DNA of 64,000 nucleotides, from the NCBI GenBank assembly GCA_021325365.1, contig JAJPHF010000155.1, positions 58,680-122,679 of the forward strand. Direction: 5' to 3'. Origin of the DNA: Pseudomonadota bacterium. Lineage in GTDB: Bacteria; Chloroflexota; UBA6077; JAJPHF01. Shown here piece after piece: positions 14,141-61,371 of the stretch. The position numbers were made by a program, and so were the translations under genes. The notes below the pieces were generated by a model. The model saw nothing but the letters and a program-made list of their open reading frames with translations. It was not told the DNA's origin and did no database searches. Position 1 is the stretch's first letter; each line of letters starts with the position of its first letter.

Positions 14141-15385
14141 ATGATGCGGGTGCAGCTTGGATGCCGCCCTGGCCTGGCGATCGTGCTGGCCGGGGCGCTG
14201 CTGACCGCGGCCACCGGCGCCCGCGCGGCCCCCGTCGCGCAGGGCGACACCGCGCTCGATCCGGGCGAGCTGTTCGCCCGCGCCATCGCCGAGGCCGACC
14301 ACGACGACCTCGCCGACGCGATCGCGGACCTGGACCAGGCCATCCGCCTCAACCCGGATTACCTCGAGGCCCACGTCGCGCGGGGCCAGCTACGGCTGCT
14401 GAACGGCGATGCCGCCGAGGCGGCCGACGATTTCGCCGCGGCCACGCGCATCGCGCCGAACGATCCGGTCGGCTACAACGAGCTAGGGGGGGCCCGCCTG
14501 GCGCTCGGCGACAACGCGGAGGCGCTGGAGGCCTACGACCAGGCCGTCCGCCTGGCACCCGACAACGCCCGCATCTACTACAACCGGGCTCGGGTCCGCA
14601 CGCTGCTAGGCGACAGCCAGGGCGCGCTCGACGACTATTCGCGAGCCATCGAATTGAACCCGGGCTTTGCCGCCGCCTATTTGGATCGCGGCGTCCATCG
14701 CTCCCGCCTGGGGGACCTGGCCGGCGCTATCGACGACTACTCGCGAGCGCTGGACCTGAACCCCAACTACGCGCTCGCGTACCTCGACCGCGCCCGCGCC
14801 CGCAGCCGGCTCGGCGACCTGGCCGGCGCGGTCGACGATTACACGCAGGCGCTCCAGAGCCGGCCCACCGCCGAGGCCTACTACGAGCGCGGGCTCACCC
14901 GCGCGCGGCTGGACGACTACGAGGGCGCGGTCGTGGACTACACGCTCGCGCTCGACCTCGACCCCAGCGCGAGCGCCATCTATACCAGCCGGGGCGTCGC
15001 CCGCGCCCGCCTCGGCGACGACGCGAACGCCATCGACGATTACACGCAGGCCATCCGCCTGAACCCGGCAGATCCCACCGCCTATTACAACCGCGGCCTG
15101 GCCCACGGCCGACAGGGCGACTACGCGGCGGCGGTCGCGGACTACACGCGCGCCCTGCGGCGGAATCCCGACCACGCGAGCGCGACCTACAGTCGCGGCC
15201 GCGCCCGCGCCCACCTCGGCGACACGCCAGCCGCCCTGGACGACCTGCGCCGCGCCGCCGCGCTCTACGAGCAGCAGGGCGACGAGGCCGGCGCGCGGCG
15301 CGCCGAGAACGCGATCGCTACCCTCGAGAAAGGCACCGCGGCGGATGCGCCGGCCGCGCTGCCAGCGGCGCCAGAGGACCGCTGA
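14141..15385 (+). CDS. exported TPR-repeat protein
   Basis: A 414-residue protein from the double ATG at 14141/14144, which follows AGGAGGGGG. A signal peptide (1-~29, LAIVLAGALLTAATGARA) directs export. The remainder is a continuous stack of about ten to eleven 34-residue tetratricopeptide repeats, each with the form AY.DRG..R..LGD..GAIDDY..AL.LNP. A short Ala-rich tail ends it. TPR stacks are protein-binding scaffolds; no enzymatic domain is visible. The repeats are unusually regular, suggesting recent internal duplication. Confidence 0.9.
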   Translation: MMRVQLGCRPGLAIVLAGALLTAATGARAAPVAQGDTALDPGELFARAIAEADHDDLADAIADLDQAIRLNPDYLEAHVARGQLRLLNGDAAEAADDFAAATRIAPNDPVGYNELGGARLALGDNAEALEAYDQAVRLAPDNARIYYNRARVRTLLGDSQGALDDYSRAIELNPGFAAAYLDRGVHRSRLGDLAGAIDDYSRALDLNPNYALAYLDRARARSRLGDLAGAVDDYTQALQSRPTAEAYYERGLTRARLDDYEGAVVDYTLALDLDPSASAIYTSRGVARARLGDDANAIDDYTQAIRLNPADPTAYYNRGLAHGRQGDYAAAVADYTRALRRNPDHASATYSRGRARAHLGDTPAALDDLRRAAALYEQQGDEAGARRAENAIATLEKGTAADAPAALPAAPEDR

Positions 15386-21549: not shown

Positions 21550-21706
21550 TATCAAGCGACGCCGATCAGTTCGCGTACACCGCCAGCAGCCAAGCAGGCC
21601 GGGCCGGTAGGAAGAGGAAGGATTGGCCGTCAGTTGGTATAACTGCGGCAGGCGCCGGCCGCCGGCGGTTGCCATCGCCATGGAGCCCATCGACGGGCGA
21701 CCAGAT

Positions 21707-21900
21707 GGTAGGCCCGGGCCTCGTCCCCTGCCGCCCGGCCGGGACAGCTAACCGCTCGCTTCCAGACACCGCCAAGCGTAGGGCAAGGGCTCGTCCCCTG
21801 CCGCCCGGCCGGGTCTGCTCATGCCAGCCGATCTACCAAACCCGAGGTAGGGCAGGGGACGAGCCCCTGCCGCCCGGCCGACGCTGCCCGGCTCGCTCAC
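21707..21900. repeat. three GGCAGGGG/CCCCTGCC repeat copies in a gene-poor stretch
   Basis: Copies at about 21707-21740, 21778-21811 and 21846-21880 share the GGGCTCGTCCCCTGCCGCCC core seen at 9562-9770. The third copy has the arms in the opposite internal order (CAGGGGACGAGCCCCTG), i.e. the hairpin loop is inverted. The surrounding 21550-22555 region contains no other convincing gene apart from the possible remnant at 22035-22355. Confidence 0.8.
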
Positions 21901-23294: not shown

Positions 23295-23957
23295 GTGAGC
23301 GAGCCGATCCGAGTCCTGCTGGCGGACGATCACACGCTGTTCCGCCAGGGGCTACGCCACTTGCTCGCCGACCATCCTCGGCTGAAGATCGTTGGCGAGG
23401 CCTCCAGCGCCGACGAGGCGGTAGAGGAGGCGCAGCGGCTGAAGCCCGACGTCATCCTCATGGATCTGCACATGCCGGGCGGTGGCGGCATCGAAGCCAC
23501 CCGCATCCTGCGCGGCGAGATGCCCGACGTGGGCGTGCTCATCCTGACGGTCTCCGAGAACGAGGAGGACTTGTTAGCGGCCCTGCGGGCGGGCGCCAAA
23601 GGCTACATCCTCAAGACCTCCGACTTCGAGCAGCTGCTGCGCTCGCTGGACACCGTCGCCGCCGGCCAGGCCGCGCTGGCGCCCGAGATGACCACGAAGC
23701 TGCTGACCCAGCTCAGCACCGACGACGCCACCCCCGGCCCGCGGCGACGCCCCGAGCCGCATCATCAGCTTAGCGAGCGCGAGCTAGAGATCCTGAAGCT
23801 CATCGCGGAGGGCGCCAGCAACCGCCAGATCGCCGGCCAGCTCTATCTTAGCGAGAACACCGTGCGCACCCATCTGGTCCACATCCTCGGCAAGCTAGGC
23901 CTCGAGAACCGTGTCCAGGCCGCCGCCTACGCCCTGCGGAACGGCCTCGCGTCTTAA
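23295..23957 (+). CDS. NarL/FixJ-family response regulator
   Basis: A 220-residue response regulator starting at GTG 23295. Receiver domain ~1-125: Asp11/Asp12, phospho-acceptor Asp57 (LMDLHMPG), Thr85 and Lys107. The LuxR-type HTH domain lies at ~155-215 (LSERELEILKLIAEGASNRQIA...SENTVRTHLVHILGKL). It should bind DNA as a dimer after phosphorylation. No sensor kinase is encoded nearby. It may co-transcribe with the secreted Pro-rich protein upstream. Confidence 0.93.
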   Translation: MSEPIRVLLADDHTLFRQGLRHLLADHPRLKIVGEASSADEAVEEAQRLKPDVILMDLHMPGGGGIEATRILRGEMPDVGVLILTVSENEEDLLAALRAGAKGYILKTSDFEQLLRSLDTVAAGQAALAPEMTTKLLTQLSTDDATPGPRRRPEPHHQLSERELEILKLIAEGASNRQIAGQLYLSENTVRTHLVHILGKLGLENRVQAAAYALRNGLAS

Positions 23958-24240
23958 AGCCGCCGACGCGCAAGATGAGCCGCCACCGTCTGGCGGGACC
24001 GCCCTTCCTGCCCCCGCGGCTCCCGGCACCCGGCCCGGCTCCCCGCGTCTCCCGAGCGACCGCTCCTCGGCCAACCCGGATCTCTCGTAGACGCGACGGC
24101 GCCAAGGAGCACGGTCCGGTCCGCTGGCGCACCGCATGCACGTATGACGGGTAGTGCGCCATATCGGGGCGCTGCTTCCTGCGCCGTGCCGAGGGAGCTT
24201 CCGTCCAGTATCGTGTCGAACCCGGCGCAGGCGTTCCTTT

Positions 24241-24452
24241 ACTCCCTCTCCCCCTGAGAGAGGGCCGGGGGAGGGCGTCCTCCCCCTCTCCCCCTGGGAA
24301 AGGGCCGGGGTGAGGGCGCCTTCCCTCGTCCCTCCCCCTCTCCCCCTGGGAGAGGGCCGGGGTGAGGGCGTCCTCCCCCTCTCCCCCTGGGAGAGGGCCG
24401 GGGGAGGACCGGTCTCTCCCCCTCTCCCCCTGAGAGAGGGCCGGGATGAGGG
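24241..24452. repeat. tandem array of five CTCTCCCCCTG...GGGCCGGGG units
   Basis: Five units of the form CTCTCCCCCTGRGARAGGGCC plus a G-rich tail occur in 210 bp with irregular 38-60 bp spacing. Each unit is itself an imperfect hairpin (CCCTCTCCC / GGGAGAGGG). A single further copy is at 35785-35818, next to the second copy of the 260-bp element. The whole 23958-24922 interval (965 bp) holds no convincing gene: it consists of this array, the 260-bp element and short stretches of similar sequence. Confidence 0.85.
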
Positions 24453-24542
24453 CCCGTCTTGGTCGGCGAACCGCCGGGCCGCATCGGGTATCATCCGCCG
24501 TCGCCGGACGACCGCCCCTCGCCAATGCCGTATTGAGTGAGA

Positions 24543-24802
24543 GGCCGCGAGGCGCGCAGGAGAGCGCCCGCCCTCCGGCGCGACGTGGTCGCCTATCTTA
24601 CGCCGTACACGCCTCCACCCCACCCGCCCTACCGCCCGGTCCCGGGGCCCCGCCCCGCCGGCACCGGCCGCCGCGGGTCGCTCGGTAGAGTATCGTACGG
24701 GGTAAACGATGCGACCTTCCGCGCCCGAGGAGCCCGCGCCAACCCGCGCCCGGCCTAGCACTTAACCACCCGGTCAAGGAGCATCGTTTGACCGTTCCTC
24801 GG
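24543..24802 (+). repeat. 260-bp dispersed leader element, copy A
   Basis: This sequence matches 35837-36096 over its full 260 bp with only scattered substitutions and no net length change. The 3' ~115 bp carry the best conserved part: GTACGGGGTAAACGATGC at about 24694-24711, then GGAGCATCGTTTGACCGTTC at 24778-24797. AAACGATGC and GCATCGTTT are reverse complements about 70 nt apart. The copy ends 120 bp before the ATG of the 79-residue gene and recQ, in the same orientation. Confidence 0.85.
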
Positions 24803-24922
24803 CCAAATTGCGCCGCGGATCAGTCGCCTCACGCCCAGGCTGGCACGCCGGCTGCTTTGGAATCGCCCAGAGCACGGTTCGCCGGACGGCGCCCGGGCAT
24901 CCCACACGCGCGGAGAGACAAC

Positions 24923-25162
24923 ATGCCGTATCGGCTCTTTGTCAAGGACACGGGGCAACCCATCGCCAACATCTCGGAGGAGCAGCTCCAGACGCTCGTC
25001 GATCTGCTCGAAGAAGAGGACGCGGACGATCGCGACTACTACGTTGACGGCGCCGTGCTCGACTATCTGGCTGACCGCGGTGCCGATCCCGCGCTCCTGA
25101 GCCTGCTCCGCAGCGTGCTGCCCCCCGGCGGCGGGGTCGAGGTCGAATGGACAGCGGCGTAG
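24923..25162 (+). CDS. small acidic conserved hypothetical protein
   Basis: A 79-residue protein from ATG 24923 (GGAGAGACAAC site). The sequence YRLFVKDTGQPIANISEEQLQTL then a very acidic EEEDADDRDYY and a C-terminal helix (DPALLSLLRSVL) is typical of a small conserved family found in several GC-rich bacteria; I cannot give it a name. The 3' end overlaps the recQ start by 16 bp, so the two are translationally coupled. It follows copy A of the 260-bp element. Confidence 0.65.
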   Translation: MPYRLFVKDTGQPIANISEEQLQTLVDLLEEEDADDRDYYVDGAVLDYLADRGADPALLSLLRSVLPPGGGVEVEWTAA

Positions 25163-26856
25163 CCCCGGCCGGGCAGCCTTCGCCGCAGGACCTATTGGCC
25201 GCGCTCCGCGAGCGCTTCGGCTTCGCGACGTTCCGGCCAGGCCAGGAGCGGATCGTCCGCGACCTGCTCGCCGGGCGCGACGTGCTGGCGGTCCTGCCCA
25301 CAGGCGCGGGCAAGTCCCTGCCCTATCAGCTCGCTGCCCAGCTCCTGCCGGGCGTCACGCTCGTCGTCACGCCGCTGCTCGCGCTCATGAAGGACCAGGT
25401 CGAGTCGCTGCGCGCGCGCGGCGTGCCCGCCGAGATGATCAGCAGCGCGCAGACCGCCAGCGAGGATGCGGCGGCGCTCGACGACGTGCGCCACGCTGAG
25501 GCCAAGCTACTCTACGTCACGCCCGAGCGCTTCGACGACGCCGACTTCGTGGCCGCCATGCGGCGCCTGCCCATCGCGCTGTTCGTGGTGGACGAGGCGC
25601 ACTGCGTCTCCGAGTGGGGGCACAGCTTCCGCCCCGCCTACCTCGCGCTCGGCCAGGCAGCGGCGGCGCTCGGTCGCCCAACGCTGCTCGCGCTTACCGC
25701 GACCGCCACGCCCTGGGTCCGCCAGGACGTGATCGAGCGCCTGGGCCTGCGCGACCCCGACGTGGTCGTCCGCGGCATGGATCGCCCCAACCTCTTCCTC
25801 GAAGTCATCCGTGTCGAGGACGAGCGCGAGGACCGGCGCGTGCTGGAGCGGCTGCTCCGCGGCGACAGCGCGGGCACGGGCGAGCCAGCCGACGACGGTC
25901 TGGCAGCCGGACTGGCGGAGGCGATGCAGGGCAGTGGCATCGTCTACACGGCGACCACGCGCGCGGCGCGCGAGACCGCCGGCTGGCTGCGCGAGTGGGG
26001 CATCGCCGCCGACTACTACCACGGCCAGCGCCGCAAGGCCGATCGCGAGCGCGTGCAGGACGCCTTCATGGACGGCACGCGGCGCGTCATCGTGGCGACC
26101 AACGCCTTCGGCCTGGGCGTGGACAAGCCGGACGTGCGCTTCGTGATCCACCGCGACGTGCCAGCCAACCTCGAAGCCTACTACCAGGAGGCCGGTCGCG
26201 CCGGGCGCGACGGCGCGCTCGCGCGCTGCACCCTCATCTACCGCCCGGGCGACCTGGGCCGCGCGGCCTTCCTCGGGGCCACTGGTGAGCTGACGCGCGA
26301 CGAAGTCGTCCGCGGCCACCGCGGGCTGATGGCCCGGCGGGAGGGCACCCTGCGCGAGCTAGCGGCGGCGACGGGGCTGAGCCGCGGCGACATCGCCCGC
26401 CTGCTTGGCATTCTGAAGGCGGAGAGGCTGGTGGCCGAGCGGCGCGGGCGCTTCCGCCTGCTGGTGCCGGACTTCGATCCGGCGGCCATCCCGCTGGAGG
26501 CCGAGGCGCGACGCCGCGCCTACGAGCACAGCCGGCTGGAGATGATGCGCGGCTATGCCGAGTGCCCTGCCTGCCGCCGCCGCTACCTGCTCAACTACTT
26601 CGGCGAAGAGTACGAGGCCGAGCGCTGCGGCCGCTGCGACAACGACCTCGCCGCCCCGCCCGAGGCCGCCGCGCCGAGCGCGGCGGCCGCCGAGGGGCCG
26701 TTCGCCGTCAACGACCGCGTGGTCCATGCCGCGTGGGGCGCCGGCGTGGTCCACCGGGTGGCCGGCGACACCCTGACCGTCTTGTTCGACCAAGTAGGCT
26801 ACAAGACGCTCCGCAGCGACATCGTGCAGGAGCAGGCCCTGCTGCAGAAAGCCTGA
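25147..26856 (+). CDS. recQ: RecQ-family ATP-dependent DNA helicase
   Basis: A 569-residue superfamily 2 helicase from ATG 25147. Motif 0 is FRPGQE (29-34), motif I TGAGKS (52-57), motif II DEAH (149-152) followed by the RecQ-specific CVSEWGHSFRP loop, motif III ALTATAT, and motif VI QEAGRAGRDG. A RecQ-type zinc-binding site (CPACRRRY...CGRCDND) lies near 475-500. The usual HRDC domain is absent. Instead the last ~55 residues (NDRVVHAAWGAGVVHRV...TLRSDIV) resemble the DUF3553 Tudor-like tail seen on some UvrD/PcrA-type helicases. It unwinds 3'-5' in recombination and repair. Confidence 0.93.
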   Translation: MDSGVAPAGQPSPQDLLAALRERFGFATFRPGQERIVRDLLAGRDVLAVLPTGAGKSLPYQLAAQLLPGVTLVVTPLLALMKDQVESLRARGVPAEMISSAQTASEDAAALDDVRHAEAKLLYVTPERFDDADFVAAMRRLPIALFVVDEAHCVSEWGHSFRPAYLALGQAAAALGRPTLLALTATATPWVRQDVIERLGLRDPDVVVRGMDRPNLFLEVIRVEDEREDRRVLERLLRGDSAGTGEPADDGLAAGLAEAMQGSGIVYTATTRAARETAGWLREWGIAADYYHGQRRKADRERVQDAFMDGTRRVIVATNAFGLGVDKPDVRFVIHRDVPANLEAYYQEAGRAGRDGALARCTLIYRPGDLGRAAFLGATGELTRDEVVRGHRGLMARREGTLRELAAATGLSRGDIARLLGILKAERLVAERRGRFRLLVPDFDPAAIPLEAEARRRAYEHSRLEMMRGYAECPACRRRYLLNYFGEEYEAERCGRCDNDLAAPPEAAAPSAAAAEGPFAVNDRVVHAAWGAGVVHRVAGDTLTVLFDQVGYKTLRSDIVQEQALLQKA

Positions 26857-26914
26857 TCGGGCTAGGAATCTACAGCGGTTATCACGGCCGTGGAGCCGCT
26901 GTACAGCGGCAGCG

Positions 26915-26943
26915 TCGTAGGGTCGGGGCTCGTCTCCTGCCCG
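26915..26943 (+). repeat. single degenerate GGCAGGGG-type repeat
   Basis: GTAGGGTCGGGGCTCGTCTC then CTGCCCGG repeats the core found at 9562-9770 and 21707-21880. It occupies the 135-bp gap between recQ and the isochorismatase-like gene. Confidence 0.65.
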
Positions 26944-26991
26944 GTGGAACCGACCCGGCAGCCCAACCACGCGCGAGGGGACGACAGAGCA

Positions 26992-27642
26992 ATGTCCGGG
27001 ACCCCGGCCCAGAACGAAGACCTGCACGGCAGCGCGCCCGACACGGCTACTGTCGCGCTGCTGTTGATCGACGTGATCAACGACCTGGAGTTCCCCGGCG
27101 GCGACGCGCTGCTGGCGCACGCGCGCCCGATGGCCGAGCGGCTCGCGGCGCTAAAGCGGCGGGCGAAGGCTGCCGATATTCCCGTGATCTACGTCAACGA
27201 CAATTTCGGCCGGTGGCGCTCCGATCTGCACGCGCTGGTCGCCCACTGCCTAGAGAACGACGTGCGCGGCAGGCCAATCGTCGCGCTGCTGCGGCCCGAT
27301 GCAGACGACTACGTTGTGCTGAAGCCGAAGCACTCCGGCTTCTTCTCGACCACGCTCGACACGCTCCTCAAGTACTTGGAGGCGAGCACCCTGATCCTAA
27401 CGGGAATGGCCGGCAACGTCTGCGTGCTGTTCACGGCGAACGACGCCTTCATGCGCGACTTCCGCCTCGTGGTTCCCGCCGACTGCGTGGCCTCGATCGA
27501 CCCGGCAGACAACGAGCACGCGCTGGCCCAGATGCACTCCGTCCTCGGCGCCGATCTCACGCCCTCAACGGCCCTCGACCTGGACCGGCTGCGCCGCCGA
27601 GCCGCGCAGCCGGTCCACCACTACCTTACCGGCGGGAGCTAA
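26992..27642 (+). CDS. isochorismatase-family cysteine hydrolase
   Basis: A 216-residue alpha/beta hydrolase from ATG 26992 behind GAGGGG. The catalytic triad of the family can be placed: Asp27 (LLIDVIND), Lys113 (VLKPKHSGF) and Cys144 (TGMAGNVCVLFTAND), with the cis-peptide-bearing GMAGNVC. Members hydrolyse isochorismate, nicotinamide, N-carbamoyl compounds or biuret. The substrate cannot be read. A truncated relative lies at 29128-29354. A hairpin at 27800-27840 closes the gene. Confidence 0.9.
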   Translation: MSGTPAQNEDLHGSAPDTATVALLLIDVINDLEFPGGDALLAHARPMAERLAALKRRAKAADIPVIYVNDNFGRWRSDLHALVAHCLENDVRGRPIVALLRPDADDYVVLKPKHSGFFSTTLDTLLKYLEASTLILTGMAGNVCVLFTANDAFMRDFRLVVPADCVASIDPADNEHALAQMHSVLGADLTPSTALDLDRLRRRAAQPVHHYLTGGS

Positions 27643-27799
27643 AGCCGCTTGCAGGGACGGAGAGCGACCGGCGTCGCGTAAGAGCGGGTCTGGTGCCCGC
27701 CCGCGGCCTGTGGCGCGGAATCCTGCAGGCGCACGCGCCGCCCAAGCCCCTGGCCAAGGACGGGCAATCCCATCCCTCGGCACCGGCTTAAAAGAGCGG

Positions 27800-27840
27800 C
27801 GGCCGCGCGCCGCCCCGGCCTGCGGGGCGGCGCGCGGCCG
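27800..27840. terminator. 18-bp stem hairpin between convergent genes
   Basis: Bases 27800-27817 pair perfectly with 27823-27840 around a 5-nt loop. It sits between convergent stops at 27642 and 27847 and is preceded by TTAAAA, so a bidirectional terminator is likely. Confidence 0.75.
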
Positions 27841-27846
27841 TGCGCG

Positions 27847-28179
27847 CTACACGCCGCCGGGCACGTCGGGGAGGCTGCTCAGCCCCGCGTGAGTGTCGTG
27901 CTCGATGCGGGCGCTCGCCGTGAACTGCGCCCCCACGGCTTCGGCCTCGATCTCGAAACTGATGCGCAGGCCATTCTCCAACTCAAGCTCGCCGCCGAGC
28001 GTGCGGGCCTGTTCGAAGAGTTCGGCGTCGGGCGTGCCGGCCGTGGCGACGACCATCAGCTTCCCGCCGACGACCGCAATGTCGACCGCGTCGTCGCCCT
28101 GCACGAGGTTGTCGGGCGCCAGATCATCCGCCGTGATACCCTCGCCGACGAACGCCATCTGCACGTTGCGCCGCTTCAT
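27847..28179 (-). CDS. small hypothetical protein
   Basis: A 110-residue protein from ATG 28179, which follows GAGGAGGCAGC. It is acidic and predicted to be mostly beta: QMAFVGEGITADDLAP, VDIAVVGGKLMVVATAG, LENGLRISFEIEAEAVGA. No membrane span or export signal. I do not recognise the family. It lies downstream of the biotin ligase gene on the same strand, about 100 bp away. Confidence 0.55.
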   Translation of the reverse strand: MKRRNVQMAFVGEGITADDLAPDNLVQGDDAVDIAVVGGKLMVVATAGTPDAELFEQARTLGGELELENGLRISFEIEAEAVGAQFTASARIEHDTHAGLSSLPDVPGGV

Positions 28180-28278
28180 GCTGCCTCCTCTTGACGGCCG
28201 CATCGTGTGGACGCGGGCCGTTATAAGGCCGGAGCCTTCGCAACTCGCGTGCCGCCGCGCGGCGCGAAGGGGCGGCGC

Positions 28279-29115
28279 CTACAGCAGCACGTCGCCGACG
28301 GTGACGCGATGGAGCGCGCCGCTCGGCAGGCGCAGGAGCAGGGCCCCGTCGAGCGCGGCGCCCTCGACACGCCCGGCCAGCGTTTCGGCGTCTGTGGCGA
28401 GGCGCACCGTCTGGTGGCGCCGCCACAGATGGCGTAGCCATTCGCCGTACAGCCCCCCCTCCCAGGCCGTCGCGGGCGCGGCCAATAGGGGCGCTAGCTC
28501 GCGCAGGAGCGCGCCGAGCAGCGGCCCGCGCGGCAGCGGCCGGCCCAGCTCCCAGTCGAGCGCCGTGGCGAACGGCGGCAGCGCGTCCCGCGCCGCGCCG
28601 TAGACCACGTTCAGGCCGATGCCGACGATCTGATAGGCGCCTGCTGCGCCGCTCACGCGCTCCGTAAGCACGCCGGCCACCTTGCGGTCGCCCAGCAGCA
28701 CGTCGTTCGGCCACTTGACCGCGGGCGCCAACCCCTCGCGCGCCAGCACACGGCAGAGCGCCAGCGCGCAGACCGCCGTCTGGGCGAACGGCGCCAGCCG
28801 CACGTCGCGAGCCACCAGGCTGAACAGCAGGCTAGTGCCCGGCGGCGCCAACCACGCCCGACCGCGCCGGCCCCGGCCGGCGCGCTGCCAGTCGGCCACG
28901 TAGACCGTGCCGTGCGGCGCTCCCGCCTCGGCTGCGGCGCGCGCCAGGTCCTGGGTCGAGGCGGCCTCGGCTCGGTAGTGAACCACCCAGCCGGGCGGCC
29001 AGCCGCCGGCGGGCGGCGCCGCGCAGTAGGCGGCCAGGTCGTCCGCTCCCGGCCGCGGCTCCGGGGCGGCGCGGTCCGGCGCCGCCCCGGAGCCGCCTAG
29101 CCGTTCACACGACAC
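28279..29115 (-). CDS. birA: biotin--[acetyl-CoA-carboxylase] ligase
   Basis: Up to 278 residues from GTG 29115; the true start may lie further in, because the first ~35 residues are built from a palindrome (29055-29096). The ligase core has STQDLARAAAE, the biotin-AMP loop GRGRRGRAW, KWPNDVLLGDRKVAGVL, GIGLNVVYG and a C-terminal SH3-like domain (RVEGAALDGALLLRL). There is no N-terminal HTH, so this is a monofunctional ligase rather than a BirA-type repressor. It would biotinylate the carrier domain of the acyl-CoA carboxylase at 50625-52679. Confidence 0.9.
   Translation of the reverse strand: MSCERLGGSGAAPDRAAPEPRPGADDLAAYCAAPPAGGWPPGWVVHYRAEAASTQDLARAAAEAGAPHGTVYVADWQRAGRGRRGRAWLAPPGTSLLFSLVARDVRLAPFAQTAVCALALCRVLAREGLAPAVKWPNDVLLGDRKVAGVLTERVSGAAGAYQIVGIGLNVVYGAARDALPPFATALDWELGRPLPRGPLLGALLRELAPLLAAPATAWEGGLYGEWLRHLWRRHQTVRLATDAETLAGRVEGAALDGALLLRLPSGALHRVTVGDVLL
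29055..29096. repeat. 18-bp-arm inverted repeat overlapping the birA 5' end
   Basis: Bases 29055-29072 pair exactly with 29079-29096 across a 6-nt loop. It lies inside the first codons of the predicted birA frame and just after the stop of the isochorismatase remnant. It could be the old terminator of that gene, in which case birA starts downstream of it (for example near the GWVVHYRAEAAS segment). Confidence 0.6.
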
Positions 29116-29127
29116 CGGGGCCGCTGC

Positions 29128-29354
29128 CTAGGCGCCGGCGCTCGCGCCGACCGGCTGCCGCTGCCAGGCAGCCAGCACCTCGTCGGCCGTAGCGACCACG
29201 CCGAAGTGCCGGCGCATGTTCGCCAGCGTAGCCTCCTGCGCGGCCGGGCCGTCGTTCGTGGCCGTGCAGTCGGACAGGAAGACGACGTAGTAGCGGGGTC
29301 CGCGAGATACGCCAGCGAATCGGTCACGAGTATCCCCTGCCCTCGCGTGCTCTC
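29128..29354 (-). pseudogene. 3' fragment of an isochorismatase-family hydrolase gene
   Basis: The frame ending in TAG at 29128-29130 reads RYYVVFLSDCTATNDGPAA, QEATLANMRRHFGVV and ATADEVLAAW. This matches the C-terminal quarter of isochorismatase-like hydrolases. Upstream it continues only to an in-frame TGA near 29352-29354, and the catalytic Asp, Lys and Cys segments are missing. It is therefore a 5'-truncated remnant. It differs clearly from the intact gene at 26992 and is not a simple duplicate of it. Confidence 0.65.
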
Positions 29355-29524
29355 ATTCTGTGATATAACCTCGACGCCGCTCGCTTCGACCGCTCCGGGA
29401 GAGCGCCGGTTTCCCGCAGCGGTTTGTGACGATATCTCAACGCCGAGCGCCGCGAATCCTCAACGGGTCGAGCCACATAATAGGCCTACATATCGGGTAG
29501 ATCATAGACCACCGGGAGTGCGCG

Positions 29525-29701
29525 ATGGCTACCGGTTCAACCGCGGACCCGTATCGTGTCGTCGAGAGCCCCCTGGACTCGATGCGCGACCGCGTCGAGG
29601 TGGCGGCCGCCTTTCAGCGGTGGCTACAGGAGAACGGCCACACCGACCGAGGCCATTGTCCCGGCTGCGCCGCCTACTACGGCCACCATGACGAATCTTG
29701 A
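29525..29701 (+). CDS. very small Cys/His-containing hypothetical protein
   Basis: A 58-residue frame from ATG 29525, with GGGAG nine bases upstream. It ends in HCPGCAAYYGHH, a cluster that could bind one zinc ion. The helical middle (MRDRVEVAAAFQRWLQENG) looks protein-like. A second tiny frame (ATG 29689 to 29801, 37 residues, basic) overlaps its end but also overlaps the convergent CoA-transferase gene and is less credible. Function unknown. The 29355-29524 gap before it is otherwise empty. Confidence 0.4.
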   Translation: MATGSTADPYRVVESPLDSMRDRVEVAAAFQRWLQENGHTDRGHCPGCAAYYGHHDES

Positions 29702-29738
29702 GCGGGCTCACCAGGCCGGCGCCCGCGCCGCGCGGCGC

Positions 29739-30473
29739 TCAACCGCCGTGAAACTCCTGGCGCCGCACGCCGCGCGGATCAACGGCGGCAAGCGCCGCTA
29801 GCTCGGCAGCCGTGGGCGGGGCCAGGACCGGCCAGGCGGCTGACGCGTCGAGCGCAAAGCCGGTGCTCGCCGCGACCTCGGCGGCGGAGCTAGTGGGGAA
29901 GACCGCCTCGACCTGCAAGCGGCCTTCCCGCCGCTGAAACACGCAGAGCGGCGTCACCACGCGGTCCACGTTGCCGGCGGCGGTCACGAAGTCGAGCCGC
30001 TCCACGAAAACGCGCCGCGAGTGCTGCGTCCGCCACAGGATCACGCGCCGCGCCGTGGGCATGATCATTGCCGCGCCGCCGCCGCCCGGCAGCCGCACCT
30101 TCGGCCGCGCCTGCTCCCCGATCGCCGAGACGTTCGTGCGGCCTTGGGCGTCGATCTGCACGGCGCCGAGAAACGCCGTGTCGACGCCGCCGCGGGCGCA
30201 CAAGTCATAGAAGTCCTCGTTGTTGAACAGGCTCGCCGAGCCGCGCGCTAGCTCCGCGTCCGTCGTCGAGTCGGGCAGGTAGCGGGGCGCGGGATCGACG
30301 CCGCCGGCGATGTTGACGTAGATGAGACGCGGCGCGTGCAGCCGCCGCGCGAGGGCGATGGCGACCATCGGTAGCACCGAGTTGACGCCCTGAAATACCA
30401 CCTCGCCGTCGCGCAGCAGGCGCGCGATGGCCACCGCCATCAGCTCGGCCGGCCCGTACGTCGCCGCGGTCAC
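29739..30473 (-). CDS. CoA-transferase, beta subunit (glutaconate/3-oxoacid type)
   Basis: A 244-residue subunit starting at GTG 30473, whose GTGA overlaps the stop of the alpha subunit. Family landmarks: LRDGEVVFQGVNSVLPMVAIALA, NNEDFYDLCARGGVDTAFLGAVQID, the RTNVSAIGE and KVRLPGGGGAA strands. In this class the catalytic Glu lies in the beta subunit; here the region EDFYD/FLGAVQIDAQG occupies that zone, but the nucleophile cannot be assigned with confidence. It would move CoA between carboxylic acids with the alpha subunit, if the alpha gene is functional. The C-terminal ~40 residues are Ala-rich. Confidence 0.85.
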   Translation of the reverse strand: MTAATYGPAELMAVAIARLLRDGEVVFQGVNSVLPMVAIALARRLHAPRLIYVNIAGGVDPAPRYLPDSTTDAELARGSASLFNNEDFYDLCARGGVDTAFLGAVQIDAQGRTNVSAIGEQARPKVRLPGGGGAAMIMPTARRVILWRTQHSRRVFVERLDFVTAAGNVDRVVTPLCVFQRREGRLQVEAVFPTSSAAEVAASTGFALDASAAWPVLAPPTAAELAALAAVDPRGVRRQEFHGG

Positions 30474-31315
30474 TGCGCGACGCTCCCACCGACGGGGGCC
30501 GGCTCGCCGCGCAGGGCGCCGTCCTCAGCGGCCAGGTACGCGGCGAGCGCGGCCGGGTCGCCACAGGCGGCCAGGTAGGCCTCCACGCCCGCGCGGTCGA
30601 CGTCGTAGTCTGGCGCGCAGCTACAGGGCCGCGCGCCGCCCGGCGCCGCGACCACGGCGCGCACGAGCAGGCCCGGAATCACGGTTAGCTCGGGCTGGCG
30701 CGCGAGCGCCGCCGTGGGCACGATGCGCTCGGCGGTGAGGATCACGCCACGTGCCGCCCGCGACATGAGCCGGTCCCAGAAGACACTGCCGTAGATGCGG
30801 GCATTGCCCTGCGCGTCGGCCTCGTGGACGTGCAGGATCGCCCAGTCGGGCCGGATGGCCGGCACTACGTAGACCTCGGCGCCGCCATACGGGTCGCGCA
30901 CCGTGCGCAGGCCGCTGGCCGCGGGAATGTCGCTGCCGTGCAAGCCCGCGACCGGCTGGAAGGGCACCCCGAAGGCCGCGGCCCGCAGCCCTGCTGCCAG
31001 GCTAATTCAGGCGTGCTCCCGGAGGCGCACGTGGCCCGCCTCGACCGCGCGACGGTAGCTGGGAGCCAGCCCGAAGCCCCCCTCCATGACGACGATGCCC
31101 GCGTAGACCGTGCTCAGGCAGCCCGCCGCACACAACAGGTCGATGTCGTAGGCGGCCGAGGGCTTGACGAAGGTGAGGTTCCGGCAGCCCTGGCGCGCCA
31201 GCTCACGAGTGAGTGCCGACGGCCCGCGGTGCAGCAGGCTGCCGCCGAACGCCACGCTCTGGCCGTCCGTCACGAGCGCGGCCGCGTCGGCCAGCGACAC
31301 TAGCTTGCCCTCCAT
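30470..31315 (-). pseudogene. CoA-transferase, alpha subunit, interrupted by one in-frame TGA
   Basis: ATG 31315 (GGAGGAGGGCG site) opens a frame that reads as a full alpha subunit of a glutaconate/3-oxoacid CoA-transferase: GGSLLHRGPSALTRELARQG, NLTFVKPSAAYDIDLLCAAG, GFGLAPSYRRAVEAGHVRLREH. A TGA at 31007-31009 then interrupts it. The same frame resumes at once with ISLAAGLRAAAFGVPFQPVAG and continues normally to 30470. No base is gained or lost, so it is a single nonsense codon, genuine or a base-call error. The 3' part could be translated from a GTG at 30967. It overlaps the beta subunit by four bases. Confidence 0.75.
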
Positions 31316-31844
31316 CGCCTTACGCCCTCCTCCGGATGCGGCTCGCTATGGCGCCATCGCTCTTGACGACAGACAGCGGCGCAACAGCCGCGAAACTGCC
31401 TGCCGGCGCTACGCCTCGCGCTCATGATACTATGGCGCCCCCGGCGGGACGGGCGGCGCCCTGCGCGACGCCGTGAGAGCGAGGTTAGGACGGCGCGCGA
31501 GCGTATCGCTACAACCGAAAAACGATCAAATGATGCTCCCTTTCGAGCGGCCCAACATCCGGTCCGCCGGCCGCTCGCCCCGAGACGTGCCGCGAAGCCC
31601 CGGTCGCGAGTCGCCCCGCTAACCGCACGAAGGTGCGTCCCAGCGCCAACCCGCCACCACCGCCGCCCTGCCGCTCGGGACGCATCCCCTCACCCCGAGA
31701 ATGCGCCCGTGTGCGAAGCAGGTCACACCCCACATGTGCTTCCGCTCATAGGCGTCAGCATCCCCAGGCGCTAGGGTGTGATCAAGCTGCTCTCCGAGCA
31801 GACAGGCGGCGCGGTGCGCGCCAAATTTTAGGAGGAGACCCACG
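31316..31844. other. 530-bp divergent intergenic region
   Basis: No convincing gene. It separates the CoA-transferase alpha gene from a divergent membrane-protein gene. It carries a degenerate copy of the leader-element core at 31507-31535 (minus orientation). The AGGAGG ribosome binding site of the downstream gene is at 31829-31834. Confidence 0.55.
31507..31535 (-). repeat. degenerate copy of the leader-element core (copy D)
   Basis: Read on the minus strand this is GGGAGCATCATTTGATCGTT followed by TTTCGG, matching GGAGCATCGTTTGAYCGTTC + CTCGG of copies A-C with a few changes. It lies about 190 bp before the ATG of the CoA-transferase alpha gene, in the same orientation. The pairing upstream arm seen in the other copies was not found. 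Confidence 0.5.
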
Positions 31845-32840
31845 ATGCAAACGACGCTTCCAGCCACCGGACTTCCGCGAGCCGACTATTCTCCGCGACT
31901 GCGCCCGCTCGGCGTGGGCGACCTGCTCGACGAGGTGTTCTCGTTGTACCGGCGCGGCTTCCGGCCGCTGGTCAGCATCACCGCGCTGGCCGGCGTGCCG
32001 CTTGCGATCCTGTCGCTCTGGCAGCTGCAGCTTGTCGCCAGCGGGGACCAAGCGCTGCTGCCGTTGGCCAGCATGGTGCTGAACGTCGTCGGGCTGGTGC
32101 TCGGCAGCCTGCAGATCGCGGCGGTCTGCTCCGCAACTTCGGCGCTCATCCTTGGCCAGACGCCCGGAGTCGCCCCGGCCTGGCGCCGTGCGCGCGACCG
32201 CTTCTGGGCGCTGGTGCGCCTGGCGCTGCTGGGCGGGGTTGCGTTCACGGTCGGGACGATAGCGCTCTGCGTCGTTGCGGGGCTGTTGGCGGTCCTGGGA
32301 GCGCTTGTGCTCCAGGCGACCGTGCCCGGCATCGCCGCGGGCCTGCTGGCGGCGTCCGTCTCGGTCGGCATCGGCGTCGCCATCGGGGCGCTCGCGCTGG
32401 TGATCTGGGTGCTCTGGAGCCTGGCAGTCCCGGTGCTGGTCGTGGAGGAGCGAACTGGCGCTGTCGCCGCCATACGACGCGGCCGTGCGCTGGCGAAGGG
32501 GGGCGTGGGACGGATCCTGCTGACCCTCCTCGCGCTAATTGCGCTGTGCGCGGTACTGCAGATCATCGCCTGGCTCCTGGTGGCCGTGGTTACCGGTCAG
32601 CTCTCGACGGTCTGGCACGCCGCCACCAGCGGGGGGAGCCCCGCCTTGGTCGCCGCGCTGGGCCCGGCCGGCCAGCCCGTCGCCGTGTGGGTGCTGCGGA
32701 CGCTCCTCAGCAGCGCGCTGAGCCTCGTCCTGGCGCCGCTGCTGGGTATCGGCATGACCCTAGTCTATTACGACCGGCGGGTTCGCGTGGAAGCTTACGA
32801 CCTCAGCGTCCGAGGGAGCGAGCTGGCGCGCTCCGAGTGA
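31845..32840 (+). CDS. polytopic membrane protein, GPDPase-membrane-domain/DUF-like
   Basis: A 331-residue protein from ATG 31845, behind AGGAGGAG. After ~35 soluble residues (PLGVGDLLDEVFSLYRRGF) come about six long hydrophobic segments rich in Ala, Val and Leu, with an internal cytoplasmic VVEERTGAVAAIRRGRALAKG loop. This layout is typical of the family related to the membrane domain of glycerophosphodiester phosphodiesterases, found as stand-alone proteins in many GC-rich bacteria. No catalytic residues are evident. Role unknown. Confidence 0.7.
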   Translation: MQTTLPATGLPRADYSPRLRPLGVGDLLDEVFSLYRRGFRPLVSITALAGVPLAILSLWQLQLVASGDQALLPLASMVLNVVGLVLGSLQIAAVCSATSALILGQTPGVAPAWRRARDRFWALVRLALLGGVAFTVGTIALCVVAGLLAVLGALVLQATVPGIAAGLLAASVSVGIGVAIGALALVIWVLWSLAVPVLVVEERTGAVAAIRRGRALAKGGVGRILLTLLALIALCAVLQIIAWLLVAVVTGQLSTVWHAATSGGSPALVAALGPAGQPVAVWVLRTLLSSALSLVLAPLLGIGMTLVYYDRRVRVEAYDLSVRGSELARSE

Positions 32841-33025
32841 GAAGCCAGGAGCCTGCTCCGTCCGCCGGCAGCGCGCCCACGGCGTCAGCTGCCGGCGGAC
32901 CGCGGGAGCAGGCGTGGAGCGCCCAGACCCGCCCGGTGGCCGCCGGGCGAGCGACGCTGCTAGCGGCCTCCACCCCGGAAGCGGTCCGCGGCTCTGAGCC
33001 CCGTCTGACACCGTTAGCGCCCCGC

Positions 33026-33514
33026 TCAGCGGGATGGGTAATCGAAGCGGACGATCATCGGCACGACGCCGTGCTGGTCGCCCAGCTCGAAGCCCGCCGC
33101 GCGGTAGGTGCGGCTCGCCCGCTCGTTCGACGGGTCCACCAGCAGCAGCAGGTAGGCGGCGCCGTGCGCGGCCGCGTAGCGCTTGGCGTGCTCGACGAGC
33201 CGGCGGCCAACGCCCCGGCCGCGCGCCTCGGCCTCCACGGCCATCGCCAGCCGGTAGCCCACCACGCGGCCGGCCGCGCGCTCGTGTACACGCAGCAGGA
33301 GCATGCCCAGCCGCCGCCGGCCGCGGTCCTCCGCGACGAACGCCAGCTCGTCGGGGGCCGGCCAGGCCGCCCAACGTTGGTCCTCGAGCGCCCGCAGCGT
33401 CTCCACGCCCAGCGCGGCGAGCAGCCGCGGCGACGCCTGGATCGCCTCCCACTGCATCCGCCGCAGGAACGGCACGTCGCCCGGCGTCGCCAGCCGGATC
33501 GTCAGGTCGTCCAT
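33026..33514 (-). CDS. GNAT-family N-acetyltransferase
   Basis: A 162-residue acyltransferase from ATG 33514, behind GGGAGGCAAG. It starts with the typical TIRLATPGDVPFLRRM. The acetyl-CoA-binding loop EARGRGVGRRLVEHA (motif A, R/Q-x-x-G-x-G/A) is followed by AYLLLLVDPSNERASRTYRAAGFE, the motif B region. It would acetylate a small molecule or protein N-terminus; the target is unknown. It is followed on the same strand after 59 bp of spacer by the MutS-like gene upstream. Confidence 0.9.
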   Translation of the reverse strand: MDDLTIRLATPGDVPFLRRMQWEAIQASPRLLAALGVETLRALEDQRWAAWPAPDELAFVAEDRGRRRLGMLLLRVHERAAGRVVGYRLAMAVEAEARGRGVGRRLVEHAKRYAAAHGAAYLLLLVDPSNERASRTYRAAGFELGDQHGVVPMIVRFDYPSR

Positions 33515-33572
33515 CTTGCCTCCCGCCTGGCGAGCCGCGGGACGGTGGCCCCCACACCGCCGGACGATGGCG

Positions 33573-35474
33573 CTACCGCCAGGCGCCGTCGTCGAGGTCG
33601 AGGCCGACGAGCTGCATGAGCTTGAGCGCGTTGGTCGAGGTGGCCACCCCCGGCCGGATCGTGTAGTCGAACGACATGGACGGTCCATCGGGGCCGCTGT
33701 GGAACTGCTCGGTGAAGTGGATCGACCGCGCCACGGCGGCCATGTCGGGGTGCTCGGCCAGCGTCAGGTCGTGGGTCGAGACGGCGCCGATCGCACCGTT
33801 CGCCACGAGGTGGAGGATCACCCGCCGCGCCGCGATCTGGCGCTCGGCGGTGTTGGTGCCCTGCAAGATCTCGTCGAGCAGGAACAGCAGCGTGCGCGTG
33901 CCATCAGCCTGCGCCCGCTCGGCCAGGTCCACGACCTCCTTCAGCCGCTGCAGCTCGGCCATGAAGTAGGACACGCCCTGCTCCAGCGAGTCCTGCACGC
34001 GGATGCTCGTGCCGAGCGTCACGGGCGGCAGGCGCAGCGCCGTGGCGCACACCGGGCCGCCGGCCTGGGCCAGCACGGCGTTCACGCCGATGGCGCGCAG
34101 AAGGGTGCTCTTGCCCGACATGTTCGAGCCGGTGACCAGCAGGAACGTCCCCGGCGGCCCAACCTCGACGTCGTTCGTGACGCGGACGGCGTCGGGCAGC
34201 AGCGGGTGGCCGAGGCCCCGCGCCGTGTACAGCGGCGGGTCGTCGTCGGCGACCGTCGGGAAGGCCCAGGTGGGCTCGTCGTGGGCCAGGCTGGCGAGCG
34301 CCGCCAGGGCCTCCGTCTCGCCCAAAGCCGCCAGCCAGCCGCGTGCCCGCGCGCCGGTCCGCGCCTGCCACCCTTCCAGCAGCGCGAGGGTGTGGAAGTT
34401 CCAGAGGGTCAGCGTCTGAACGGGGAAGTAGAACATCGAGAGCCGCAGGTAGGTGAGCCGCACGCGCCGCGCCAGCGACCGCGTCTGGCGGGCGGCGCCG
34501 AGCGGGCCGTCGCCAAGCGCGGCCTGCAAGCGCTGGAGCAAGGGCGCCTGGAAGCTCGTGCCGGCCAGCGCCGCGAACACTTCCGCGTAGTGCTCGACGG
34601 CGCTCGCCTGCGACGCCACGCGGTCGAGCAGGAGGTCGACCTGCTTGCCCGCCGTCTGGCTGAGGGCGACGTTCGCCAGCGCGCAGGCGAGCCACCACGG
34701 CTGCGCAACCACGCCGACAAGCTGCGCCACGAGCAGCGCGCAGGCACCGAGACTGAGCGCGCGGGCGGCCCATAGCAGTCCTGGCCGGCAGGTCAGCCAG
34801 GGCTCTCCCTCGGCCCACTCGAGAAATGGCTCCGGATCGGCGCTGGCGGGGCCCATCAAGCGCCCGCGCAGGGCTAGCTCGTCGCGCAGGTCGAGCAGCG
34901 GCGCCAGCTCGCCTACCGCCGCCTGGCGCTCGCGGATTGACGCGGGCGGCGCCGGGTGCAGCAGCCAGCGGCCAAGGGTGGCCGCGCCGGGGGGCGTGCT
35001 GACGGCCCCGAGCAGCTGGAAGACGGATGCCCGGCCGAAGAGGTCGAGGTCGGCCGCGAAGGCGTGCGCCGCCGCCTCGGGTGGCGGGGGGCGCTGCGGC
35101 AGGCCGTCCCAGTCGCGCGCCAGGCGACGCAGCGCCTCGGCGTCGAGCTGCCACAGCGTGGCGTAGCGGCGGCGCGTGCGGGCGACGCGCTCATGGTAGA
35201 CGACGAGCGCCACGAAGCCGACGCCGCAGGCGGCCGCCGCGGCGACGAGCGCCAGCGCGCCCGTGACCAGCCCCCAGACGAGCACCGCAACGGCGCTGGC
35301 GAACACCGCTAGGCGCGCGTAGCCGACGCGCCGCAGCCGGCGGTCGAGGCGGTCGCGCTCGGCGGCGAAGCGGGCGCAGCGCTCGCGGTAGGTCGCGGCC
35401 GCGGGGCTGGTCGGCTCGACGGGGGAGCGCTCGGCCGGGAGCGGCGCGGCCGTGCGGGGGGGCGCCTGGCTCAT
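33573..35474 (-). CDS. membrane-anchored MutS-like ATPase
   Basis: From ATG 35474 (AGGAAGG site) the product is 633 residues. Residues ~50-95 contain a hydrophobic hairpin (YARLAVFASAVAVLVWGLVT / LVAAAAACGVGFVALVVYH), and a second hydrophobic pair lies near 230-265. Lever/clamp-like helices lead to a MutS-type ATPase: Walker A GSNMSGKST, Q-loop region, Walker B LFLLDEILQGTN and the H-loop STHDLTL. No mismatch-binding domain I (FxE) is present, so it is not a canonical MutS; this architecture matches the widespread MutS-related membrane family. It is divergent from the amidase gene across copy B of the 260-bp element. Confidence 0.85.
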   Translation of the reverse strand: MSQAPPRTAAPLPAERSPVEPTSPAAATYRERCARFAAERDRLDRRLRRVGYARLAVFASAVAVLVWGLVTGALALVAAAAACGVGFVALVVYHERVARTRRRYATLWQLDAEALRRLARDWDGLPQRPPPPEAAAHAFAADLDLFGRASVFQLLGAVSTPPGAATLGRWLLHPAPPASIRERQAAVGELAPLLDLRDELALRGRLMGPASADPEPFLEWAEGEPWLTCRPGLLWAARALSLGACALLVAQLVGVVAQPWWLACALANVALSQTAGKQVDLLLDRVASQASAVEHYAEVFAALAGTSFQAPLLQRLQAALGDGPLGAARQTRSLARRVRLTYLRLSMFYFPVQTLTLWNFHTLALLEGWQARTGARARGWLAALGETEALAALASLAHDEPTWAFPTVADDDPPLYTARGLGHPLLPDAVRVTNDVEVGPPGTFLLVTGSNMSGKSTLLRAIGVNAVLAQAGGPVCATALRLPPVTLGTSIRVQDSLEQGVSYFMAELQRLKEVVDLAERAQADGTRTLLFLLDEILQGTNTAERQIAARRVILHLVANGAIGAVSTHDLTLAEHPDMAAVARSIHFTEQFHSGPDGPSMSFDYTIRPGVATSTNALKLMQLVGLDLDDGAWR

Positions 35475-35784
35475 GCGCCATCCTTCCTGGGCCCGGGACG
35501 CTACGCGGGAACGCCTCCACCGCCAGGTGAAGCGTTCCCGCGACCGCTCCCGAGCCGTTACACACCTTGACGCTTGGAGTGTAGCCCTGTACCCTCCCCG
35601 GCAGCCAGCATACGGGCCGCGCGGGGTGTGCCCCGGCATTTTGCGGGCGGGCGCGCGGCTCCACTGGCTGCGCCGGACGATGGCTCTCTGCCAATGCCTT
35701 AGCTTGTAGGGGGCGTAGCAAGCAGTGCCCCGCCCGGTCGCCACCCGGCCCGGTGTCCCAGCGAATCCGGTGCTGGGGCGTCTC

Positions 35785-35818
35785 ACTCCCTCTCCCCCTG
35801 GGAGAGGGTTGGGGTGAG
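35785..35818 (+). repeat. single CTCTCCCCCTG...GAGAGGG unit
   Basis: Same unit as the five-copy array at 24241-24452, here as one copy. As there, it lies shortly upstream of the 260-bp element. The rest of 35475-35784 shows no gene. Confidence 0.75.
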
Positions 35819-35836
35819 GGCGCGCCCCCAGTACCC

Positions 35837-36096
35837 GGCCGCGAGGCGCGCAGGAGAGCGCCCGCCGTCCGGCGCGACGTGGTCGCAATCTTACGCCGTA
35901 CACGCCTCCCCCGCACCCGCCGCCCGCGCCCGGCCCGGGGCACCCCGCCCCGCCGGCCCGGCCCGCGGCAGGACAGCCGGGGAGTATCGTACGGGGTAAA
36001 CGATGCGACCTTCCGCGCCCGAGGAGCACGCGCCAACCCGCGCCCGGCCTAGCAGTTAACCACTCGGTAAAGGAGCATCGTTTGACCGTTCCTCGG
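35837..36096 (+). repeat. 260-bp dispersed leader element, copy B
   Basis: Collinear with copy A (24543-24802) at equal length, with about 25-30 scattered differences concentrated in the middle third. Conserved landmarks: TTACGCCGTACACGCCTCC, then GTACGGGGTAAACGATGCGA at about 35990-36009 and GGAGCATCGTTTGACCGTTC at 36072-36091. It ends 65 bp before the amidase ATG in the same orientation. No open frame is conserved between the copies. Confidence 0.85.
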
Positions 36097-36161
36097 ATAC
36101 ACGGTGCTGCAAAATCATGGGGCACACCCGGCCGCACGGCGGCTGGTGGATGGGAGGGCGC

Positions 36162-37874
36162 ATGGCAAGCACGGTAACGCGCCGACTGGCATTTCTGGAC
36201 GGCATCGATCTGGCGCCGAGCGAGATCGACGCGATCGCCGCCGAGCTAGCAGAGTACGAGCAGGCGCTGGCCGCGCTGGAGCCGTTCGCCGCGGCGGCGG
36301 CCTGGCCGGTGATGCAGGCGCAGCCCTACCGCGCGAGTAGGCCCCCCCAGCCCCCCAATGCGGGGGGGAGCGCCACCGCCGCGGCCGGCCCCGCCCCAGC
36401 CTCGGGGGAGGCCGCGCGAAGAGAGCCGGGGGCTGGGGGGGAGATCGCCTCTGAGGCCGAGGCGACGGAGCTGTGGCAGCTCGGAGTGGCGGCGCTGGCG
36501 CGGCGGCTGCGAGCGCGCGAGGTGTCGTCGCTGGAGGTGACGGATGCGGTGCTGGCGCGGCTGGAGCGGCTCGAGGGGCGGCTGAACGCCTTCATCACGA
36601 TCATGGCCGAGCACGCCCGCGACGCGGCGCGGCAGGCGGACGCCGAGATCGCCCGCGGCGAATACCGGGGGCCGCTGCACGGCGTGCCGGTCACGATCAA
36701 GGACATGTTCAACACGGCCGGCGTGCGCACGACCGGCGGCTCGGGGATCCTGGCGGGCTGGGTGCCCGACGAGGACGCCGCGCTGGTGGAGCGGCTGCAC
36801 GCGGCCGGCGCCGTGCTCGTCGGCAAGACGAACCAGGACGAGTTCGGCCACGGCGGCACCTCCACCCTGTCGTACTTCGGCCCCGTCCACAACCCCTGGG
36901 ACCTCGAGCGCATCGCCGGCGGCTCCAGCGGCGGATCGGCCGCGGCGGTCGCCGCCGGCATCGGGCCGCTCTCCTACGGCACCGAGACCGGCTCATCCGT
37001 GCGCCGGCCGGCCGCCTACTGCGGCATCGTCGGCTACAAGCCGACGTTCGGCATCATCAGCCGCTACGGCTCGTTCCGCGGCGCCTGGAGCATGGACCAC
37101 GTCGGCGACTTCGCGCGCTCGGTCGAGGACGCGGCGCTGGGGCTCGACGCGGTGGCCGGCTACGACCCGCGCGACCCCGCGAGCGTGCCGCAGGAGCCGC
37201 CCGCCTACGCTGCGCGGCTGAGCCCCGACGTGCGGGGCCTGCGGATCGGCGTGCTGCGTCGCTTCGCCGACGACCCGAGCGTGCAGCCGGCGGTGCGCGC
37301 GGCGTTCGAGGCGGCCGTGGCCCAGTACCGCGCGCTCGGCGCCGACGTGCGCGACCTGGACGTGCCCGAGATTAGCTACGCGGCGATGACCTCGATGATG
37401 AACAGCGCGGCCGAGGCATCGGGCAACAACCGCGAGTGGGTGTACTCGCGCGCCGGCGACTACGTGCCCGACGTGAAGCGGCGCCTGGCGATGGGCATGG
37501 GCATCACGGCGTCGGAGTATCTGGTCGTACAGCGGGCGCGGCACCGCATCCAGGGCGCCGTGCGCGCGGCGTTCGACGCGGTCGAGATCATGCTGGCGCC
37601 GACGACGGCGCGCGTGGCGCCGCCGATCGCCCAGGGGCCGCGCGGCAACGGCGACAGCACTTACGCCGTGAGCCACAACCTGTCGAACCTGCTGCGGCTG
37701 GCGAGCATGCTCGGCCTGCCAGCCTGCTCGCTGCCGTCGGGGGTGGGCGAGGATGGCCTGCCGACGGCGATCCAGTTCTTCGGCGTCTGGTACGACGACC
37801 AAACCGTACTGAACGCGGCCGCCGCCTTCGAGCAGACGACGCCCTGGAGCCGGCGGCGGCCGCCCATCGACTGA
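36162..37874 (+). CDS. amidase-signature family amidase
   Basis: A 570-residue amidase from ATG 36162, behind GGGAGGGCGC. The Ser-cisSer-Lys triad can be placed at Lys180 (VTIKDMF), Ser255 (GGSSGGS) and Ser279 (GTETGSSVRRPA). It resembles GatA-like and general amidases, which release ammonia from carboxamides. A GatA role is unlikely because gatB/gatC are absent. Residues ~60-100 form a low-complexity linker encoded by a C-run/G-run element with 14-nt inverted arms (36342-36355 and 36428-36441), apparently inserted in frame between an N-terminal helix and the amidase domain. Copy B of the leader element lies just upstream. Confidence 0.92.
   Translation: MASTVTRRLAFLDGIDLAPSEIDAIAAELAEYEQALAALEPFAAAAAWPVMQAQPYRASRPPQPPNAGGSATAAAGPAPASGEAARREPGAGGEIASEAEATELWQLGVAALARRLRAREVSSLEVTDAVLARLERLEGRLNAFITIMAEHARDAARQADAEIARGEYRGPLHGVPVTIKDMFNTAGVRTTGGSGILAGWVPDEDAALVERLHAAGAVLVGKTNQDEFGHGGTSTLSYFGPVHNPWDLERIAGGSSGGSAAAVAAGIGPLSYGTETGSSVRRPAAYCGIVGYKPTFGIISRYGSFRGAWSMDHVGDFARSVEDAALGLDAVAGYDPRDPASVPQEPPAYAARLSPDVRGLRIGVLRRFADDPSVQPAVRAAFEAAVAQYRALGADVRDLDVPEISYAAMTSMMNSAAEASGNNREWVYSRAGDYVPDVKRRLAMGMGITASEYLVVQRARHRIQGAVRAAFDAVEIMLAPTTARVAPPIAQGPRGNGDSTYAVSHNLSNLLRLASMLGLPACSLPSGVGEDGLPTAIQFFGVWYDDQTVLNAAAAFEQTTPWSRRRPPID
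36342..36441. repeat. inverted-repeat insert inside the amidase linker
   Basis: CCCCCCCAGCCCCC at 36342-36355 is the exact reverse complement of 36428-36441, 72 nt apart. The enclosed DNA keeps the reading frame and encodes a Pro/Gly/Ala-rich linker. Its composition resembles the non-coding C-run/G-run repeats elsewhere in the window. Confidence 0.6.

Positions 37875-59230: not shown

Positions 59231-61371
<2,141 letters not shown>

Follow-up and report, generated by a model that had tools for sequence, protein, structure and literature searches.

In the 64,000-nt window (the whole stretch of DNA that we analysed, whose positions are used throughout), two similar stretches of intergenic DNA lie in front of unrelated genes. 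The first copy (c1; 24543–24802, plus strand) is located upstream of an open reading frame of 79 amino acids and of recQ, and the second (c2; 35837–36096, plus strand) upstream of an amidase gene, with recQ and the amidase recognized by Pfam. The 79-amino-acid frame (24923–25162, plus strand) overlaps the recQ start, has no Pfam match, and, with a best tblastn E value of 0.17 across six recQ loci from relatives, lacks a convincing homolog there. The end-to-end match of the two copies, as reported in the initial annotation, is borne out by blastn (90.6 per cent identity over 265 columns, E 1e-96). Their equal length of 260 bp is likewise correct, but it is the product of small gaps that balance each other.

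Conservation between c1 and c2 is uneven. The 3′ third had been singled out as the best conserved part, and only 4 of the 115 columns of the 3′ block differ, but the 73 columns at the 5′ end (block A; 24543–24615 in c1, plus strand) are equally well kept, with three differences. In the C-rich middle (24616–24687 in c1, plus strand), 23 of 74 columns differ. The contrast among the blocks is strong (Fisher P = 5.6e-9, with block borders set after the alignment had been viewed). This block-wise conservation suggests selection as a hint, not as proof, because the C-rich middle may have a higher mutation rate.

The last 25 bases of the element (consensus GGAGCATCRTTTGAYCGTTYYTCGG) are present not only in c1 (24778–24802, plus strand) and c2 (36072–36096, plus strand) but also at 61465–61489 and 31515–31539 (both minus strand), which brings the number of sites detected by blastn and a weight matrix to four in 64 kb. 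The third site terminates a diverged copy upstream of the NAD-synthetase gene (c3; 61465–61724 from left block to 25-mer, minus strand), and the fourth, upstream of a CoA-transferase gene, consists of the 25-mer alone (c4). On a matrix made from these very four sites, they score 42–46 bits; the next-best place in the window scores 13.7 bits, and five Markov-random windows reached 13.0 bits at most. Beyond the last G of the 25-mer, the flanks of the four sites have no significant similarity to each other, giving the element a sharp right boundary. Block A is not significant in c3 or c4, and in c4 neither the left block nor the left arm described below is significant, so that the 25-mer is the sole significant part there. 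When the upstream region of c3 was compared as a whole to those of c1 and c2, the global scores were reached by 3 and 9 of 300 shuffles, respectively, but local scores gave no significant similarity (16 and 135 of 300 shuffles). A covariance model of c1–c3 scores c3, one of its own sequences, at 102 bits and c4 at 15.2 bits (E 0.095), with a chance match in the window reaching 14.7 bits.

The element is larger than the 260 bp first described. An upstream block, CGGACGM-N9-GCCRATGC, is common to c1 (24505–24528, plus strand), c2 (35674–35697, plus strand), and c3 (61701–61724, minus strand), and these are its only three matches in the window. From the left block to the 25-mer, the element spans 298 bp in c1, 260 bp in c3, and 423 bp in c2 (35674–36096), where a CTCTCCC unit is included. 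Within the right end, the arm AAACGATGC precedes its inverted partner GCATCGTTT by 68 nt in c1 (24704–24712 and 24781–24789, plus strand), 68 nt in c2 (35998–36006 and 36075–36083, plus strand), and 67 nt in c3 (61554–61562 and 61478–61486, minus strand). This spacing is constant in the three copies although the spacers have drifted. The chance figures for these features (0.06 matches expected in the window for the left block, and 0 of 100 shuffles for the arms) are somewhat generous, because both patterns were composed after the copies had been viewed.

The CTCTCCC palindromes are a separate, wider repeat family. In c2, a unit at about 35785–35820 separates the left block from the 260 bp; at c1, an array of such units at about 24234–24460 lies outside both. 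Of 82 genomes of the order, 25 contain the palindrome with at most one mismatch, and the reversed control gave no match. These matches in relatives provide a positive control, as they demonstrate that the pattern search is able to detect dispersed repeats in those genomes. Another dispersed palindromic repeat (core about GGGGCTCGTCCCCTGCC) is located at 9628–9740 and 21702–21887 and, inverted, at 38975–39024. Two tandem repeat arrays lie within genes, at 6962–7864 and 14278–15158 (periods of about 155 and 102 bases), and the second of them encodes a TPR protein. The heptamer GTATCAT, possibly a −10-like box, is present four times in the window (24488 and 52665, plus strand; 31424 and 61403, minus strand), compared to 1.1 expected and with four reached in 4 of 100 shuffles. 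Three of its four occurrences are near the element: immediately before the left block of c1, and 55 and 84 nt past the 25-mer of c3 and c4, respectively.

Genes in the window were picked by third-position GC content and corrected by hand, and intergenic regions of 60 bp or more, 37 in number, amount to 17 per cent of its length. All four sites are intergenic, for which the probability is 0.0009 for four random sites. The claim that the element precedes a gene in the same orientation holds at all four sites, but it carries less than it seems to: the neighbors of c2, c3, and c4 are divergent genes, so that an element on either strand would precede a gene in this way, and only c1, between same-strand genes, is informative. 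Orientation toward the next gene therefore weighs little. For an intergenic site placed at random, the probability of pointing at a start codon is 0.53, and thus 0.077 for four of four. The regions that host the element rank high in length (the top three of 10 divergent regions and number two of 19 tandem regions), which is the expectation if DNA was added. Two of the neighboring genes appear irregular. The NAD-synthetase frame (58984–61350, minus strand) seems broken, as the main match ends at query residue 500 of 788 in seven of seven related genomes and the remainder reads as low-complexity sequence; an assembly error or a pseudogene seems to be the cause. The frame of the CoA-transferase subunit (30470–31315, minus strand) has an in-frame stop after residue 102, and the portion behind the stop still matches Pfam CoA_trans.

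The copies had been described as having no shared open frame. This is inexact, since in c1, c2, and c3 one sense frame runs through the 3′ block without a stop and ends in EHRL(T/I)VPR, but their non-coding appearance stands. The sense frame is unlikely to be coding, because three of the four differences that separate c1 from c2 are amino acid replacements; every change within the 25-mer alters a residue as well, and in c4 the frame stops two codons past the 25-mer. An antisense frame common to all four copies reads (E/K)RSNDAP, and three of four distinct changes in the 25-mer are silent in it. In both c1 and c2 that frame runs into a stop within a few codons, and by our estimate three silent changes out of four are not rare when six frames are considered. 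In a protein search, a 119-amino-acid sense frame over c2 had no match at E ≤ 10 among 556 candidates.

The window is Chloroflexota-like, with a Chloroflexota bacterium MAG as the named best match of recQ (65 per cent). In five genomes of one order recQ is 63–68 per cent identical, and the NAD synthetase is 61–66 per cent identical in 7 of the 15 genomes searched. Searches for the element itself in the order (82 genomes), the class (158), and a sample of the phylum (400) yielded nothing above chance. With the 260-bp query, 100 relatives yielded six places in four genomes (E ≤ 0.001), all of them GC-rich and within query bases 58–137, and with the 115-bp query, matches at E ≤ 1 were obtained in 70 of 82 genomes (best 5e-4; no longer than about 50 nt among the matches listed); we read both sets as low-complexity chance matches. 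Allowing up to three mismatches, the 24-mer occurs in 2 of the 82 genomes of the order, and the 25-mer in one of the 400, where the match lies within an open reading frame of 159 amino acids and was rejected. The 18-mer (at most two mismatches) has matches in 64 of the 158 genomes of the class, with a maximum of three per genome, whereas the reversed control has up to five in one. Run with stricter filters, the covariance model matched 4 of the 82 genomes of the order at E ≤ 0.1 (0.03–0.07), against about eight expected by chance. When 13 loci of relatives that hold recQ or NAD synthetase were scored with the matrix (one recQ gene was included twice), the best reached 13.4 of 41.7. An exact 33-mer of c1 and c2 had no match in genome contigs, the 21-mer, 24-mer, and arm patterns had none in viral contigs, and blastn searches of c2 against plasmids and of the 3′ block against phages returned none. 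Because the element is not above chance in the order, the class, the phylum sample, viral contigs, plasmids, or phages, it seems, as far as these sequence collections go, to be confined to a lineage outside the genomes searched. In the part of the literature search results that we surveyed, no description of the element was found. With four sites in 64 kb, it could rank among the main repeat families of its genome and serve as a marker for a Chloroflexota lineage outside the collections searched.

The initial annotation had offered two readings, a leader or a mobile element. The four sites of different age in one lineage favor the latter, and orientation scarcely supports the former. With about even confidence, we regard the sequence as a dispersed, non-autonomous element of intergenic DNA, young and restricted to one lineage, that measures about 260–300 bp (the lengths of c3 and c1) and was probably once mobile. 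Judged from sequence, four copies of different divergence within 64 kb would fit mobility better. The sharp right boundary, the left block, the constant arm spacing, the absence from relatives in which the CTCTCCC palindromes were detected, and the long host regions also point in this direction. An enzyme encoded elsewhere in the genome would have recognized the left block and the stem-forming right end, in which two inverted arms about 67 nt apart end sharply in the conserved 25-mer. Copies would have spread into long intergenic regions, their middles would have drifted, and c4 would be the oldest copy, of which the right end alone remains. If transcribed, the right end would form a hairpin of about 119 nt in the leader of the next gene. 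Several observations stand against mobility. No target-site duplication was seen by eye at the 260-bp borders of c1 and c2, which is indecisive as the true left end is uncertain; blastn (word size 7, E ≤ 1) did not detect the right end in inverted form at the left end; no transposase is among the families matched by the 29 window frames scanned with Pfam; and block A was not found in c3 or c4. In addition, a near-complete 25-mer beside drifted sequence exceeds the needs of an inert relic.

The main rival to a mobile element is a selected cis-regulatory role, in which a leader or operator is reused at several genes and its blocks are kept by selection. This we consider possible but doubtful, and we propose equally tentatively that the arms would then be a hairpin in the mRNA leader or, together with the 25-mer, DNA bound by a regulator. 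Selection would account for the survival of the 25-mer in c3 and c4, for the location of all four sites between genes and before a start codon, and for the 5′ and 3′ blocks of c1 and c2, which differ at 7 of 188 columns, although the C-rich middle that contrasts with them may just mutate faster. Three of the four sites, however, are in the divergent regions where pointing at a start means little, the start codon lies at varying distances from the 25-mer (120 nt in c1, 20 or 65 nt in c2 with its two possible starts, 114 nt in c3, and 199 nt in c4), and the downstream genes have no common function.

Signals of RNA structure are similarly divided. In the consensus fold of c1–c3, 4 of the 37 pairs are changed on both sides, which is matched by 3 of 500 shuffles, and three of these four pairs sit in one small helix just before the 25-mer. 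The fold is a lead only, because it is derived from the same three sequences, two of which are nearly alike. The arm pairs never vary in c1–c3 and hence yield no covariation. For c1 and c2, folding of the 3′ region is about as good as that of shuffled sequence (z = −1.17 and −0.24), and the 25-mer folds differently in the four copies, with no fold common to all. No Rfam 15 family matches anywhere in the window at its gathering score, and at E ≤ 5 the c2 region has two unrelated matches far below theirs.

The two readings could also be combined. The 25-mer and its inverted partner may be a working control module (an RNA hairpin or a looped operator) that spread on a mobile carrier in one Chloroflexota lineage and was then selected at many gene starts, joining recQ, NAD synthetase, the amidase, and the CoA-transferase in one regulon; we view this as speculative and rather unlikely. 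If the 25-mer is indeed kept in place by selection, a dispersed repeat would here have become a control element common to several genes.

A family of small RNA genes, with a promoter of their own in the 5′ block and a hairpin RNA made from the 3′ block, is improbable. It would agree with two conserved blocks that flank a variable spacer and with a possible long paired stem in c2. Block A, however, which would have to supply the promoter, was not found in c3 or c4, and a scan of 23900–36300 (which holds c1, c2, and c4, with c3 outside) revealed no sigma-70-type promoter in that interval and no terminator-like site near these three copies. Integron attC sites, T-boxes, and promoters of other sigma factors were considered and dropped. 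A short coding sequence or leader peptide is very improbable, as the sense frame open in c1–c3 and the antisense peptide shared by all four copies are outweighed by the residue replacements, the stop in c4, the early end of the antisense frame with its unremarkable count of silent changes, and the missing protein match.

Returning to a dispersed element that was probably once mobile, its resemblance to known systems is partial. With structured mRNA leaders of the riboswitch type it has in common conserved blocks, possible paired arms, and a site before start codons; unlike them, it corresponds to no Rfam family, has no terminator-like site at c1, c2, or c4, precedes unrelated genes, and was not found in relatives. 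REP sequences and the ends of IS200/IS605-type elements are also short stem-forming intergenic repeats with a conserved end, and GTAG repeats have been reported from Chloroflexi (PMC3733652). In the definition given in PMC6006769, a REP has a GTAG or GTGG tetranucleotide 0–2 nt before a short, fully paired stem. The 25-mer shows no such arrangement: it starts with GGAG, is much less palindromic, folds differently among copies, and belongs to a longer element, and no TnpA is encoded by the window frames scanned.

We place the element near miniature inverted-repeat transposable elements (MITEs) without filing it there, because inverted repeats at both outer ends were not found (an inverted arm is found only about 68 nt inside the right end) and no target duplication was seen at the 260-bp borders, of which the left may not be the true end. 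Like a MITE, it has several non-coding copies (two near-complete, one diverged, and one reduced to the 25-mer). The Correia element, which is presented as a prokaryotic MITE-like intergenic element in a review (PMC10969869), differs in that its arms are at both outer ends, whereas here they are inside the right end, with no target-site duplication seen and no parental insertion sequence known. The two nonetheless have much in common: both are small, non-coding, and intergenic, are present as diverged copies that are often just upstream of genes, and carry inverted arms.
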